Shown here: piece after piece, positions 11,252 through 51,261 of the stretch
Numbering within the stretch: position 1 is the first letter of the stretch
Layout of the letters: each line of letters starts with the position of its first letter
NCBI GenBank assembly: GCA_030145245.1
Contig: JAQYWC010000044.1
Location: forward strand, 1-64,000
Direction of reading: 5' to 3'
DNA length: 64,000 nucleotides
DNA from: Desulfobacterium sp.
GTDB taxonomy: Bacteria > Desulfobacterota > Desulfobacteria > Desulfobacterales > Desulfobacteraceae
Notes under the pieces: model-generated
What the model was told of the DNA's origin: nothing
Database searches by the model: none
What the model saw: only the letters and a program-made list of their open reading frames with translations
Translations under genes and position numbers: made by a program

Positions 11252-12288
11252 CAGAGCATAAATCCTTGTTGAAAGGGGTCATCAGGATCGACCATAAACC
11301 TGTGCACCCCGGTTATCTGTGCATTTCCCCTGATCCGGACCACAACGGCGTCAAATTCGCCCACCCGTGTCAGGTCGACGATCTCTCCCTCAAACGCGGT
11401 GTTCAGGGGACTGTAGTTGGTCAGGGCCTGGTTGATTTTTATCTTTCCGTAGTGGTGAAGAAGGGCCAGCTTTGCCGTGGTTCCCGTGCCGCAGGGAGAC
11501 CTGTCCATGTGGGACTCACCATAAATCACCACGTTTCGCCCCTCCAGGATCTCGTGCATATGGGGATCATAGAACTCGGCCACATCCACGGTGGAGACGC
11601 CTGATCGCAACGGGTGACTTACCTCAAGCTGGTCATTGGCGGCGTCGATGATCTTCATACCCAGATCCGTCAGTTGTTTTCTGTTTTCCACCCCAAGGTC
11701 CATGCCCGTGTCACCGGACGACACCATGGCAAAAAAACCGCCGGCATAGACAAGGTCCACGGAAAGCGGGCCGAAACCCGGCACCTCAATGGTATTGGCA
11801 GTACTGTGGACAAAGGCGGGGACCATGGTGACGGCAACGGACGTAACCTTCTGATCCCTGACAAATGCAATGGCGGTCATGGGACCGGAGGGGGTATCGA
11901 TGGTGATGGGATTTTCGCCGTCAACCACCTTGAGGATACCGGTTCGCACCAGGGTGGCAACGGCACCCATGGTGGCGTGACCGCAGAGATAGGGATAGCG
12001 TTTCGCATCCATGTAGATGAGGCCGAAGTCAGCGCCTTTACTCACCCCCCCGGTGACCATGGCGGCAAGCACACCGCTTCCACCCCTGGGTTCCTGGGTG
12101 AGCAGACACCTAACGTGATCAAAATCCCGCTTGAAATTCGCAAGTTTCTCCGCCATGGTCCGGCCCGGAACCGGCCCGACACCCTGGAGGATAAGGCGGG
12201 TGGATTCGCCGGCGGTGTGGGAATCTACAGTCAGGATCTCCTGGGAGGCATCCAGCGTGAAATCAACAACAGATCGAGAAATCATCAT
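11251..12288 (-). CDS. Proline racemase / hydroxyproline 2-epimerase family enzyme
   Basis: This is a two-base, cofactor-free epimerase. Both catalytic cysteines are present: Cys102 in LCGHATMG and Cys266 in DRSPCGTGT, counted from the ATG at 12288. Enzymes of the family with Thr at the first position are dehydratases, so this one should be a racemase or epimerase of proline, hydroxyproline or a similar ring amino acid. Start codons near 12285-12297 are ambiguous (an upstream TTG, then two ATGs) and no strong ribosome site is seen. It is the first gene of a six-gene operon with an amidohydrolase and a Pot-type importer. The likely role is conversion of an imported D- or cis-amino acid to a form that can be degraded. 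Confidence 0.87.
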   Translation of the reverse strand: MMISRSVVDFTLDASQEILTVDSHTAGESTRLILQGVGPVPGRTMAEKLANFKRDFDHVRCLLTQEPRGGSGVLAAMVTGGVSKGADFGLIYMDAKRYPYLCGHATMGAVATLVRTGILKVVDGENPITIDTPSGPMTAIAFVRDQKVTSVAVTMVPAFVHSTANTIEVPGFGPLSVDLVYAGGFFAMVSSGDTGMDLGVENRKQLTDLGMKIIDAANDQLEVSHPLRSGVSTVDVAEFYDPHMHEILEGRNVVIYGESHMDRSPCGTGTTAKLALLHHYGKIKINQALTNYSPLNTAFEGEIVDLTRVGEFDAVVVRIRGNAQITGVHRFMVDPDDPFQQGFML

Positions 12289-47781: not shown

Positions 47782-49251
47782 ATGGAACAGCGTAACCGTC
47801 GGCTCATCACCATCATCAGCCTGCTTCTCACCGCAGGATTTCTGGGCATAAGCATCACAAGCTACCTTGTATCAAGTTCCTCCCTGAAGTCCCACATCAC
47901 CCAGAATGAGCTTCCCCTGACAGGCGACAACGTCTATTCCGAAATCCAGAGGGATCTTCTCAGGCCGATCTTCATCGCATCCCTCATGGCAACGGACACC
48001 TTTCTCCGGGACTGGGTGATCCAGGGAGAAAAAGGCACGGAAAAGATCTCCCATTACCTTGGAGAGATAAAAGAAAAATATAATACCTTTTCAAGCTTTT
48101 TTGTCTCCGATGCCACAAACAGATACTACTACTCTGACGGCATACTCAAAACCGTCAGCAGTGAACAGGACCGGGACCAGTGGTATTTCCGCATCAAGGA
48201 GATGGACACGGACTATGAGATCAATGTTGACCCGGACATGGCCAACAAAGACACCATGACCATTTTCATCAACCACAGGGTCCATGACTACGATGGCAAC
48301 TATATCGGGGCAACCGGAGTGGGGCTTGCCATCTATGCCGTAAAGAGCCTGATCAACACCTACCAGGAAAGATACCAGCGAAGCATCTACTTTACGGACA
48401 AAAACGGAAGGGTAACCCTCCATGGCCAGGACTTTCCCAAAACCCGGAAAAACATCTTTGACATCCAGGCCATGGCCGAACACAAAGGAGAGATTCTCAA
48501 GGGCGACCCCCTGTCGTTTGAATACCAGGATAACGGCGAAACCGTCTATGTGAACAACCGGTACATACCGGAGTTCGGCTGGTATCTGTTTGTTGAACAG
48601 CGGGGAGATGAGGCGATCGAGAAGATCCGTAACACCCTGATCGCCAACCTGTGTTTATCCTTTGTCATCACAGCCATAATTCTCGTGGCCACCAACCTGA
48701 CCATCTCCTCCTACCAGAAACGGCTCACACGGATGGCCTCAACCGACAAGCTCACCGGCATTTACAACCGCAGGGCCTTTGACATCATCATCAACCAGAC
48801 GTTAAAGGATGTCCCAAGGGATCAAAAGCCCTTCTCCCTTATCCTGTTTGACATCGACCATTTTAAAAGGATCAACGACACCCACGGCCACATGACAGGG
48901 GATTGTGTCATACAGAAGGTGGTGGCAACCACCGGCAAAACCATCCGCAGCAGTGACGTTCTGTGCCGGTGGGGCGGGGAAGAATTTCTCATACTCCTCA
49001 AGGAGTGTACCCGTGAAGATGCCCTGGCAACAGCAGAAAAAATCCGCAGGGCCGTGGAAGCCGCTCCCGCCTTGTGCCAGGAAAGAGCAATCCCTGCCAC
49101 CATCAGCATTGGCGTAACCGAACAGGTCCACATGGATACCCGGGAAAGCATCCTGAAACGCGCAGACAAGGCACTTTATGCGGCAAAAGCAAACGGACGG
49201 AACCGTTGTGAGACGGCCTTCTTGCCCCCGCCTGAGGATAAAAACGGTTAA
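47782..49251 (+). CDS. Membrane-bound diguanylate cyclase with Cache-type sensor
   Basis: This 489-residue protein has TM1 near residues 8-30, an extracytoplasmic Cache-type domain (motif YIGATGVGLAIYAVKSLI), TM2 near 290-312, then a GGDEF domain. The active site is GGEEF. The inhibitory site RSSD lies exactly five residues before it, so feedback by c-di-GMP is expected. AAGGAG precedes the ATG at 47782; the longer open frame to 47689 is not needed. The ligand of the sensor is unknown. The 3' end overlaps the convergent cobO gene by four bases. Confidence 0.9.
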   Translation: MEQRNRRLITIISLLLTAGFLGISITSYLVSSSSLKSHITQNELPLTGDNVYSEIQRDLLRPIFIASLMATDTFLRDWVIQGEKGTEKISHYLGEIKEKYNTFSSFFVSDATNRYYYSDGILKTVSSEQDRDQWYFRIKEMDTDYEINVDPDMANKDTMTIFINHRVHDYDGNYIGATGVGLAIYAVKSLINTYQERYQRSIYFTDKNGRVTLHGQDFPKTRKNIFDIQAMAEHKGEILKGDPLSFEYQDNGETVYVNNRYIPEFGWYLFVEQRGDEAIEKIRNTLIANLCLSFVITAIILVATNLTISSYQKRLTRMASTDKLTGIYNRRAFDIIINQTLKDVPRDQKPFSLILFDIDHFKRINDTHGHMTGDCVIQKVVATTGKTIRSSDVLCRWGGEEFLILLKECTREDALATAEKIRRAVEAAPALCQERAIPATISIGVTEQVHMDTRESILKRADKALYAAKANGRNRCETAFLPPPEDKNG

Positions 49252-49769
49252 AATTCAATGCCCTTCTGGGCCATGATTCCGGACTTATAAGGATGCTTCA
49301 CCTCCTTCATCTCGGTCACAAGATCGGCCGCATCGATGAGGGTCCTCGGGGCGTCCCTCCCGGTTACCACCACATGGTTTTTCCTGTTTTTATCCGATAA
49401 AAAGGCAACCGCCTCCTTGGTATCGATGAAATTAAAGGTCATCAGATAGGTCAGCTCGTCCAGGATCACCACCTTGTACTCCCCGGATGAAATGATCTCC
49501 TTGGCCCTGTCCCAGGCATGCACGGCGGTTTCCCTGTCCTTTCCCAGGTTATCGGACTGCCAGGTAAATCCCCTTCCCATCACATGAAAATCCAGGTTGT
49601 CACCAAAACGGTCGGCAGAGAATAATTCACCATACTCCCAGCTTCCCTTCATAAATTGAATGACGCACACCTTGTAACCGTGGCCCAGGGCCCTCATGGC
49701 AAGCCCCAGGGCTGCGGTGGTTTTTCCTTTTCCATATCCCGTATTAACGATCAGTAAATCACTTTCCAT
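49248..49769 (-). CDS. cobO: Cob(I)alamin adenosyltransferase (CobO/BtuR)
   Basis: This 173-residue enzyme adds the adenosyl group to corrinoids. The P-loop GYGKGKTTAALG is at 11-22, followed by VCVIQFMKGSWEYGE and LDELTYLMTF. The length is a little below the 190-200 of BtuR. It is the third gene of a cobalamin-riboswitch operon, so its level should fall when adenosylcobalamin is plentiful. It acts in the cytoplasm. Confidence 0.93.
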   Translation of the reverse strand: MESDLLIVNTGYGKGKTTAALGLAMRALGHGYKVCVIQFMKGSWEYGELFSADRFGDNLDFHVMGRGFTWQSDNLGKDRETAVHAWDRAKEIISSGEYKVVILDELTYLMTFNFIDTKEAVAFLSDKNRKNHVVVTGRDAPRTLIDAADLVTEMKEVKHPYKSGIMAQKGIEF

Positions 49770-49827: not shown

Positions 49828-50130
49828 TTAATCAACAAGCTCAAAGTCAGGCTCGCTGCCACGGCCCTCCAGATGATTTTCCGTGCGATAGAGTTTTCCA
49901 TCCTTTCCAAACTCATACTCGGGCAGCCTGCCCATGCCGTGGAGATGATATTTTGTTCGATAGAGCTTTCCATCCTCTCCCAGCTTGTAATCCGGATGCT
50001 CCGACCACCCCATGGGATGGGCAACGGTTCTATAAAGAAAACCGTCCCTCATGGTGTAAATGGGGAACGCGCCCGTTGCAGTCCCCGTGGCGCAAGCCCG
50101 GTTAATCTTCAATACATGGTCACTGTTCAT
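49828..50130 (-). CDS. Protein of unknown function made of three 24-residue repeats
   Basis: I do not recognise this 100-residue protein. Residues 29-52, 53-76 and 77-100 are three in-register repeats of the pattern DGxLYRTxxHxxGxxxxPxYxxGx. Each unit has a fixed His at position 10, and the second has two. There is no signal peptide, membrane span or Cys cluster beyond Cys13. AAGGAG sits 7 bases before the ATG, so it is a real gene. It lies between the cobaltochelatase and CobO genes in a cobalamin-riboswitch operon, which suggests a role in cobalt or corrinoid handling; the repeated histidines could bind a metal. Both points are inference. Confidence 0.8.
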   Translation of the reverse strand: MNSDHVLKINRACATGTATGAFPIYTMRDGFLYRTVAHPMGWSEHPDYKLGEDGKLYRTKYHLHGMGRLPEYEFGKDGKLYRTENHLEGRGSEPDFELVD

Positions 50131-50203
50131 GATTTACTCCTTGTTTATGTTCCGGAAATGGATTTGTGGAACTCAACCTTCGGCCTTCAGCTTTGAAGGA
50201 CAG

Positions 50204-50250: not shown

Positions 50251-51120
50251 CTATAGATGCGCAACCGCCTGGGTCAGGTGCTTGACCCAGATGGCGACCA
50301 TGTTATCGTATTCTGCGGTTCCCTTGAGAACCGTCTTGCAGTCAATGCCCGCTTTAGTCAGGATCGACTTCCAGGAATCGTCCTCGTCGCCTGCCATGTC
50401 GTTTCTTGCGTGGTCCCCGGCAACGGACATGAACGGAATGAGATAGGCGCTCTTGACATTGTTTTTCTTCAGCATGGCCTGGATATCGCCAATTTCAGGC
50501 GAACCCTCAACCGTACCCACATAGATGTTGGGGTCGATCTTCTGGAGGTTGAACATCATGGCCGCATAAAAGGCGTTGGAAGGATGGGGAGTTCCGTGTC
50601 CCATGAGAACCACGGCCTCTCCCGGTTTTCTATGTTTGGGAATGTTGCTGACCACGGCCTGGGCCACGGCTTCAATATCCTTCTGGCTGGAAATCATTGG
50701 CGCCCCGAGCACAATATGCTGGATCCCATTAGGCATGCCTTCAAAGGCCTTGGCTGTCCGGGCAAGATCGTCATACTCCTCCCCCCGGATGGTGTGGAGG
50801 GACTGTACGGCCACCTGGGTAAACCCATCGTCGGTCATCTTTGCAAGGGCCATGGCAACGCTGTCGAGCACTTCACCCTGTTTAGCAAGCTTGTTCCGGA
50901 TGATGGCCGAGGTGTAGGCCCATCGGACAGGCATCCCCTGGAAGGTGGCCTTGACGGTTTTATCGATATTCTCAAACGACACCCGGGCCTCGGGGACACT
51001 GGAACCAAAGGCAACCAGCAGGATGCCCTTTTTCTCGGGACGGTCATGGCCATGGGCAAGGGCAAGGGCAGGCAGCAGCAACAGGACGATGAAAAGAAAC
51101 GAGATAATTTTTTTTTGCAT
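50251..51120 (-). CDS. cbiK: Exported sirohydrochlorin cobaltochelatase (CbiK, periplasmic type)
   Basis: This class II chelatase would insert cobalt into sirohydrochlorin. The protein has 289 residues, and the first 22 are a Sec signal peptide ending ALALA, followed by HGHD. The metal-binding His residues are in VLMGHGTPHPS and MSVAGDHARNDMAG. Desulfovibrio has a known periplasmic CbiK (CbiKP) of this kind, beside a cytoplasmic one. Because corrin synthesis is cytoplasmic, the exported form may act on metal or haem at the cell surface instead. It is the first gene after a cobalamin riboswitch. Confidence 0.9.
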   Translation of the reverse strand: MQKKIISFLFIVLLLLPALALAHGHDRPEKKGILLVAFGSSVPEARVSFENIDKTVKATFQGMPVRWAYTSAIIRNKLAKQGEVLDSVAMALAKMTDDGFTQVAVQSLHTIRGEEYDDLARTAKAFEGMPNGIQHIVLGAPMISSQKDIEAVAQAVVSNIPKHRKPGEAVVLMGHGTPHPSNAFYAAMMFNLQKIDPNIYVGTVEGSPEIGDIQAMLKKNNVKSAYLIPFMSVAGDHARNDMAGDEDDSWKSILTKAGIDCKTVLKGTAEYDNMVAIWVKHLTQAVAHL

Positions 51121-51167: not shown

Positions 51168-51202
51168 AAAAAAACCCCGAACCGATTACAATCGATTCAG
51201 GG
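51168..51202 (-). terminator. Riboswitch-controlled intrinsic terminator
   Basis: On the minus strand CCCTGAATCGATT pairs with AATCGGTTCGGGG with two mismatches, followed by seven Ts (51174-51168). It lies about 60 bases after the cobalamin riboswitch and 47 before the cbiK start, so it is probably the OFF-state terminator. Confidence 0.75.
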
Positions 51203-51261
51203 TATCCCTTTTCTTATCCTGAAAATCTTGATGCCATCCCTGATCCACGGGGAAACACAAA

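Follow-up and report, generated by a model that had tools for sequence, protein, structure and literature searches.

A four-unit repeat protein, very probably a member of the Desulfobacterales cobalamin regulon

Where a B12 riboswitch controls a single gene, that gene usually serves uptake or synthesis or encodes a B12-independent backup enzyme. An aptamer followed by a terminator is typical of OFF switches that act by terminating transcription, in which transcription ends when cobalamin is plentiful. In delta-proteobacteria, described cobalamin regulons include cbiK-cbiL, btuCDF and nrdDG under the control of B12 elements (PMC545781). The regulon passages of that study name no small repeat protein, and the repeat family considered here would be a further regulon member; no description of the family was found in open-licence PMC papers. 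For the four-fold beta flower, families PF21784-6 have been placed in the Tubby clan, and the sections of the source that deal with this fold give no tested function (PMC10584680).

The locus lies in a stretch of 64,000 nucleotides from Desulfobacterium sp., referred to here in its full length as the window, and is transcribed from the minus strand. Its first element is a cobalamin riboswitch aptamer (RF00174; 51252..51440 (-); 109.2 bits, E 1.9e-26, full model 1-189), the sole Rfam match in the whole window at gathering thresholds. A candidate intrinsic terminator occupies the interval between riboswitch and cbiK (51174..51203 (-); 13 pairs and then a T run, fold energy -18.5 kcal/mol). A terminator scan over 2.5 kb returned one terminator-like site, fewer than the mean of 3.2 in shuffles, and alone gives this element no support, which comes instead from position and conservation. 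Then follow cbiK (50251..51120 (-)), encoding a cobaltochelatase-type protein (PF06180, E 3.5e-70; NF047852, 206.6 bits, under its 400-bit cut-off) with an N-terminal hydrophobic stretch that by eye resembles a signal peptide, the repeat gene (49828..50130 (-)), and, as the last gene of the unit, cobO/btuR for a corrinoid adenosyltransferase (49248..49769 (-); PF02572, E 2e-65; TIGR00708 and NF004637 over their cut-offs), the end of the unit being convergent with a GGDEF gene. The first-pass annotation had placed the repeat gene, with a strong ribosome site, between an exported cobaltochelatase and CobO behind one riboswitch. The PF06180, PF02572 and RF00174 matches bear this arrangement out, with export judged by eye, and so does the AAGGAG read from the sequence at 50137-50142 (-), 6 nt 5' of the ATG.

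The repeat gene encodes 100 amino acids from its ATG start. Mean differences at codon positions 1, 2 and 3 among all pairs of 27 aligned relatives are 0.41, 0.35 and 0.64, and the reading frame is therefore coding, with selection acting on the protein. The product is probably cytosolic; no signal peptide is seen by eye. It has no match in Pfam (E up to 10) or NCBIfam, and PHROGs returned two weak matches (E 0.021 and 0.19) and no fitting family. Three other candidates were set aside: a putative oxidoreductase found in the PDB by sequence (2ism), whose E of 3e-4 for the query rose to 1.5 with the family profile and which we attribute to chance; a second match in the same genome, too weak at E 0.92; and MORN repeats, considered but not adopted.

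Compared with itself, the protein reaches a best internal score of 128 against a maximum of 44 in 5000 shuffles. Unit 2 (residues 29-52; 49975..50046 (-)), unit 3 (residues 53-76; 49903..49974 (-)) and unit 4 (residues 77-100; 49831..49902 (-)) have DG.LYRT..H..G....P in common, with His at position 10 of each. The description of these as three exact 24-residue units holds for the period, the motif and the His, but pairwise identity is only 11, 11 and 13 of 24, and the units are therefore termed similar here. That description also overlooked a fourth, N-terminal unit (unit 1, residues 8-28; 50047..50109 (-)), which is degenerate in the window protein, where the frame is kept and the tip His is absent, and visible in relatives; in alignment A4, for example, the N-terminus of L069 and L073 forms a further unit KIFRT..HHLG....PDY, and the full-length profile match to four-unit homologues given below covers it as well. 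Among the 27 aligned members P23, T35, H38, G41, G54 and Y81 are invariant, so that unit 2 keeps both H38 and G41 in 27/27, with W42 in 25. H86 of unit 4 is kept in 26/27 and H62 of unit 3 in 22/27, the five exceptions being four members of one genus and L070, which has Asn. The putative tip column of unit 1 carries His in nine of the 27.

With a nine-sequence alignment, AlphaFold2 (AF2) produced a model with pLDDT 87.3 and pTM 0.78 and eight short strands (residues 7-11, 25-28, 31-34, 46-50, 55-58, 70-74, 79-82 and 96-99); the model made without an alignment was poor (pLDDT 50.7) and was not used. From the strand list, as distinct from coordinates, we infer four hairpins in a ring closed by pairing of the first and last strands. 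Foldseek found nothing at E<=0.001 in the PDB or BFVD. VIA-align, which aligned 435 of 438 chains, gave a lipocalin-like protein as its best match at Z 4.8, where Z below 8 may mean a common arrangement only; two cobalamin-bound Bacteroides chains (Z 2.0-2.1 over 38-39 residues) were not counted. The predicted protein resembles the beta-flower family PF21784 (Bflower), as described in the passages on that family, in its four units and in its eight short strands, between which long loops alternate with short ones; where [DNEQ]xxG is given there for the hairpin tip, HxxG stands in a comparable long loop here (PMC10584680). It differs in having units of 24 residues, against about 17-18 by eye in Bflower, and in lacking the C-terminal tail of seven aligned Bflower members, while riboswitch control is a feature of the repeat protein. 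At the level of sequence no membership emerged: neither the window protein (E up to 10) nor ten further relatives in the order nor L024 matched Bflower, for which Pfam membership lies above 25 bits, and L007 and L024 had weak unrelated Pfam matches only (E 0.04 and above). A genome search with PF21784 matched 9/148 genomes, G000 not among these, and hhalign of A4 against the seven Bflower members gave a probability of 0.6% over 10 columns, short of profile similarity. Since the sequence tests failed while the strand layout agrees, the four-fold beta flower may be the closest fold, and the protein may be built like a beta flower but is not assigned to the family.

Twenty-eight loci of the order, one per genome and each with up to 20 kb of context, were scanned for Rfam matches. 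They include L028 (genome G044; also L006), whose gene has an in-frame TAG and whose row was left out of alignments A1 and A4, and exclude fragments in G648, G738 and contig C37 of G746. A cobalamin riboswitch lies upstream of the repeat gene on the same strand in 25 of the 28. In 22 it is directly 5', at 109-379 nt (L026, L029-L034, L036, L068-L076, L078-L082), and these directly led loci come from seven families; with the 2-16 riboswitches that each genome has, random placement would put one within 380 nt in 0.007 of 28 cases, and loci of one genus are not independent cases. One gene intervenes in three loci, namely cbiK in the window and L025 and a TonB-dependent receptor in L028. An upstream riboswitch was not seen in L027, where the contig gives 2.0 kb, in L077, where 7.6 kb were examined, or in L035, where a riboswitch instead lies 131 nt 3' of the repeat gene and heads a TonB receptor and a btuF-cbiZ gene. 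Some intervals between riboswitch and gene contain or are crossed by called ORFs of at least 80 codons, which overlap the aptamer or, read in a different frame or on the other strand, the repeat gene; 10 such ORFs were scanned and had no Pfam match at E 0.01. Within 150 nt after the aptamer, 24 of the 25 loci have a terminator hairpin with a T run, none being found in L071, whereas dinucleotide shuffles of the same 150-nt stretches yielded on average 0.35 and at most 2 of 25, and randomly chosen segments of these loci 7/250.

At L026, in the congener G058 of the window genome, the flanks are conserved (M20, HMGL and GGDEF genes at 67% identity each, TRAP genes at 84-86%), and the riboswitch, terminator and repeat gene are retained. 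Tblastn finds neither cbiK nor cobO in the 20 kb of this locus; CbiK genes are present elsewhere in G058. As the sequences of these two loci stand, the constant partner of the riboswitch is the repeat gene and not the chelatase. In many loci the repeat gene is the first or only co-directional gene behind riboswitch and terminator, and in L026, L070, L078, L079, L080, L081 and L082 the next downstream gene is on the opposite strand. The upstream riboswitches, the terminators behind them and the synteny with G058 together indicate that the repeat gene very probably belongs to the B12-repressed regulon of Desulfobacterales.

Several individual loci have features of their own. In L069 (6642-9432) two cobalamin riboswitches are divergent, one heading the anaerobic ribonucleotide reductase gene nrdD and the other the repeat gene, and in L028 the cobalamin riboswitch is preceded, at a distance of about 1 kb, by a c-di-GMP-I riboswitch (11842-11919) of opposite strand. 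Around the repeat-gene fragments of L083 (G648), L084 (G738) and L085 (G746 C37), a search of 11-20 kb showed no cobalamin riboswitch; in the first two only a C-terminal part is seen and in the third only an N-terminal part.

A B12-pathway gene (CbiK, CobO/BtuR, CobN, CobB/CobQ, CbiB or CbiZ) lies near the repeat gene in at least 13 of the 28 loci, which is a lower bound because the remaining loci are only partly annotated. CbiK and CobO occur together in the window and L025, CbiK in L035 (twice) and L036, CobN in L035, L077 and L078, BtuR in L077, a CobB/CobQ-like gene in L068 and CbiB in L074; L027 has a TonB receptor ahead of the repeat gene and a periplasmic-binding protein behind. CbiZ is fused behind a periplasmic-binding domain in L028, L031, L035 and L073, as identified with Pfam, and in L032 and L034, as found by a CbiZ search. 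The neighbours thus range over chelatase, transport, salvage and adenosylation genes, with none co-directional in some loci, and the His positions are not peculiar to the B12-linked branch; a function serving the cobaltochelatase alone is therefore unlikely. The first-pass annotation, which suggested an undescribed cobalt, sirohydrochlorin or corrinoid binding protein, is supported in part; the cobalamin link that it drew is much stronger than could be seen from the window (25/28 loci, 22 of them directly led). Within the window's family, CbiZ is present in 13/13 carrier genomes against 39/73 non-carriers (p 0.0007) and, among genomes at least 90% complete, in 11/11 against 29/43 (p 0.024), both by a test that ignores phylogeny. 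CbiK over its cut-off gives no contrast in the same family (12/13 carriers and 65/73 non-carriers, p 0.59).

The fusions in L028 (15682-17715), L031 (7579-9600), L035 (5208-7241) and L073 (4372-6474) are about 680-700 residues long and combine a BtuF-like Peripla_BP_2 domain with CbiZ; the remaining C-terminal part had no match. CbiZ is usually regarded as cytosolic. By eye the fusion proteins appear to be exported, which suggests corrinoid remodelling outside the cytosol.

With the window protein as query, matches were found in 13/86 genomes of its family, and alignment A1 matched 30/389 genomes of an order sample, fragments counted. The gene is thus missing from most genomes of the order and is therefore accessory. 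Alignment A4, in which some rows begin a few residues off the true start, matched 29/389 genomes of a class sample, all within the same order. In samples of the phylum, A1 (2/395) and the plasmid-type profile A6 (2/380) each matched the window's own genome and G396. Scanning GTDB r220 for the pattern, with each species represented by one genome, gave 65 candidates, of which the eight confirmed share contigs with eight of the 28 loci and add no independent cases.

Beyond the order, four-unit homologues, for which no family name was found, occur on the Enterobacteriaceae plasmids L064, L065 and L066 and in G396 (L037); L064 is an E. coli plasmid, and a distant homologue, L067, is on a Cupriavidus plasmid. 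Among plasmid records 6/72,556 have a homologue, and a search of E. coli genomes with the repeat DNA of L065 matched 14/5,426 genomes at 52 places, all plasmid-borne. Profile A6 has four rows (L064, L066, L037 and L086); L067 was left out for an in-frame stop, and the translation of L065 is the same as that of L064. Against A6, hhalign matched A4 over the full length with a probability of 99.6% and E 1.2e-24. The plasmid and G396 proteins resemble the window family in the four-unit frame and in the x-x-H-x-x-G loop, which is kept in L037, L064 and L066. They are unlike the window protein in having four near-perfect units and, in L037 and L064, no cobalamin riboswitch in the scanned context; none was found within 20 kb in G396 (L037), on the whole plasmid of L064 or within 12 kb of L067. 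Homologues lying mainly away from B12 genes and riboswitches, on which the first-pass annotation was to be given up, are therefore not what Desulfobacterales present, with 25 of 28 loci riboswitch-led, whereas the distant homologues scanned (L037, L064 and L067) do lie in this way. The presence of H-x-x-G loops in homologues with no riboswitch nearby weakens a cobalt-specific reading of the histidines.

The near-perfect four-unit homologues at L064:2214-2480, L065:5479-5745 and L066:342-608 are unannotated on their own strand, and in L064 and L065 they are overlapped by opposite-strand hypothetical proteins and adjoin mobilisation and HigA/RelE-type genes. PHROGs searched with the plasmid proteins gave families of unknown function (best E 7e-6), no stretch passing alone. 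Viral contigs yielded no relatives with the window protein or A1 and one (L086) with the plasmid-type protein; a phages collection gave no match. On its viral contig, L086 (217-459) has a shorter repeat of the type QPVYEIRGNKI and lies, by eye, upstream of terminase-like and portal-like ORFs. Its sub-threshold match to PF21786, the six-fold beta flower (E 4e-4; 20.6 bits, cut-off 34), ranked below another unrelated weak match, and L086 may be taken as a weak sequence bridge between the plasmid-type repeat proteins and beta flowers.

The explanation that we consider best, at somewhat below an even chance as a whole, is a regulon repeat protein that forms a four-unit ring and holds a corrinoid on its H-x-x-G face; corrinoid binding taken by itself is put forward more tentatively, as a putative activity. 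When cobalamin is plentiful the riboswitch would end transcription, and when B12 is scarce the repeat protein would be made. Its four units would close into one ring, in which the strand at the N-terminus fills out the petal of unit 4, and the long H-x-x-G loops would lie on one face. There the conserved unit-2 loop (H38-P-x-G-W-S) and its partners would hold the ligand, which could be cobinamide or cobalamin taken up by the cell, or else a late precursor, so that capture and hand-over would be aided when B12 is short. A more specific form of this explanation, which we regard as decidedly unlikely, is that the loop tips of a four-fold flower form a cup fitting the pseudo-four-fold corrin ring, with the H-x-x-G His as axial ligand, which would make the protein a new, non-Rossmann class of corrinoid carrier in the cytosol, produced under B12 scarcity only. 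The B12-binding Rossmann domain has the motif D-x-H-x-x-G, which is alike in H-x-x-G. In the repeat protein the Asp is absent, the strand layout differs and the motif stands in three or four repeats; the resemblance is most likely coincidence, and kinship was not adopted. The strongest arguments against His-cobalt chemistry are the retention of the loop in homologues with no riboswitches nearby and the members that lack His in single units, and the x-x-H-x-x-G loop may be structural or serve another ligand.

Other explanations accommodate part of the same evidence. The repeat protein could be a protein-protein adaptor or regulator made at low B12 with no small-molecule ligand, modulating, for example, TonB/BtuCD uptake, CbiZ salvage or a B12-dependent enzyme. 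Small repeat scaffolds are often binding platforms, the gene precedes btuF-cbiZ-type genes in L028, L031, L032 and L034 and cbiK in L036 and stands alone elsewhere, and homologues occur in unrelated contexts; as no single conserved partner lies beside the gene, however, we consider an adaptor rather doubtful. A chaperone or buffer for cobalt or another metal, feeding CbiK or CobN through the repeated His, would account for the single His conserved in each of three units out of the four and for a gene that adjoins CbiK (window, L025, L035, L036) or lies near CobN (L035, L077, L078). Such a function is nevertheless unlikely: many loci have riboswitch and gene with no chelatase beside them, including the syntenic one of G058, where CbiK is encoded elsewhere; by eye, the CbiK of the window looks exported while the repeat protein lacks a signal peptide; plasmid homologues with no B12 context have His at the same positions; and genomes with and without the repeat gene do not differ in CbiK content.

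The distant homologues on small Enterobacteriaceae and Cupriavidus plasmids, with no riboswitch in the two that were scanned (L064 and L067), also invite a role outside B12 chemistry, in the envelope, in stress or in a mobile element, for example, that riboswitches have merely captured. A riboswitch link in seven families with differing neighbours is hard to explain in this way unless there is a B12-dependent need, and the relics in G648 and G738, with the C-terminal part only and no riboswitch, look as if gene and riboswitch had been lost together, which makes a role of this kind quite improbable. Least credible of all is a leader or attenuator with no protein function. Although the ORF is short and often directly behind the riboswitch terminator, the codon-position differences reflect selection on the protein, and the ribosome site of its own in the window, the conserved residues and the loci in which the gene stands alone also speak against a leader.

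Returning to a regulon protein with a B12-related function, these comparisons of sequence and gene order suggest that the repeat protein probably has a real job in obtaining or handling B12. That a small repeat protein can stand alone behind a B12 riboswitch, and that its gene is linked to such riboswitches in seven families within a single order of sulfate reducers, points to a step in acquiring or handling B12 that has gone unrecognised, and would offer a first way into the physiology of proteins with a beta-flower-like layout.
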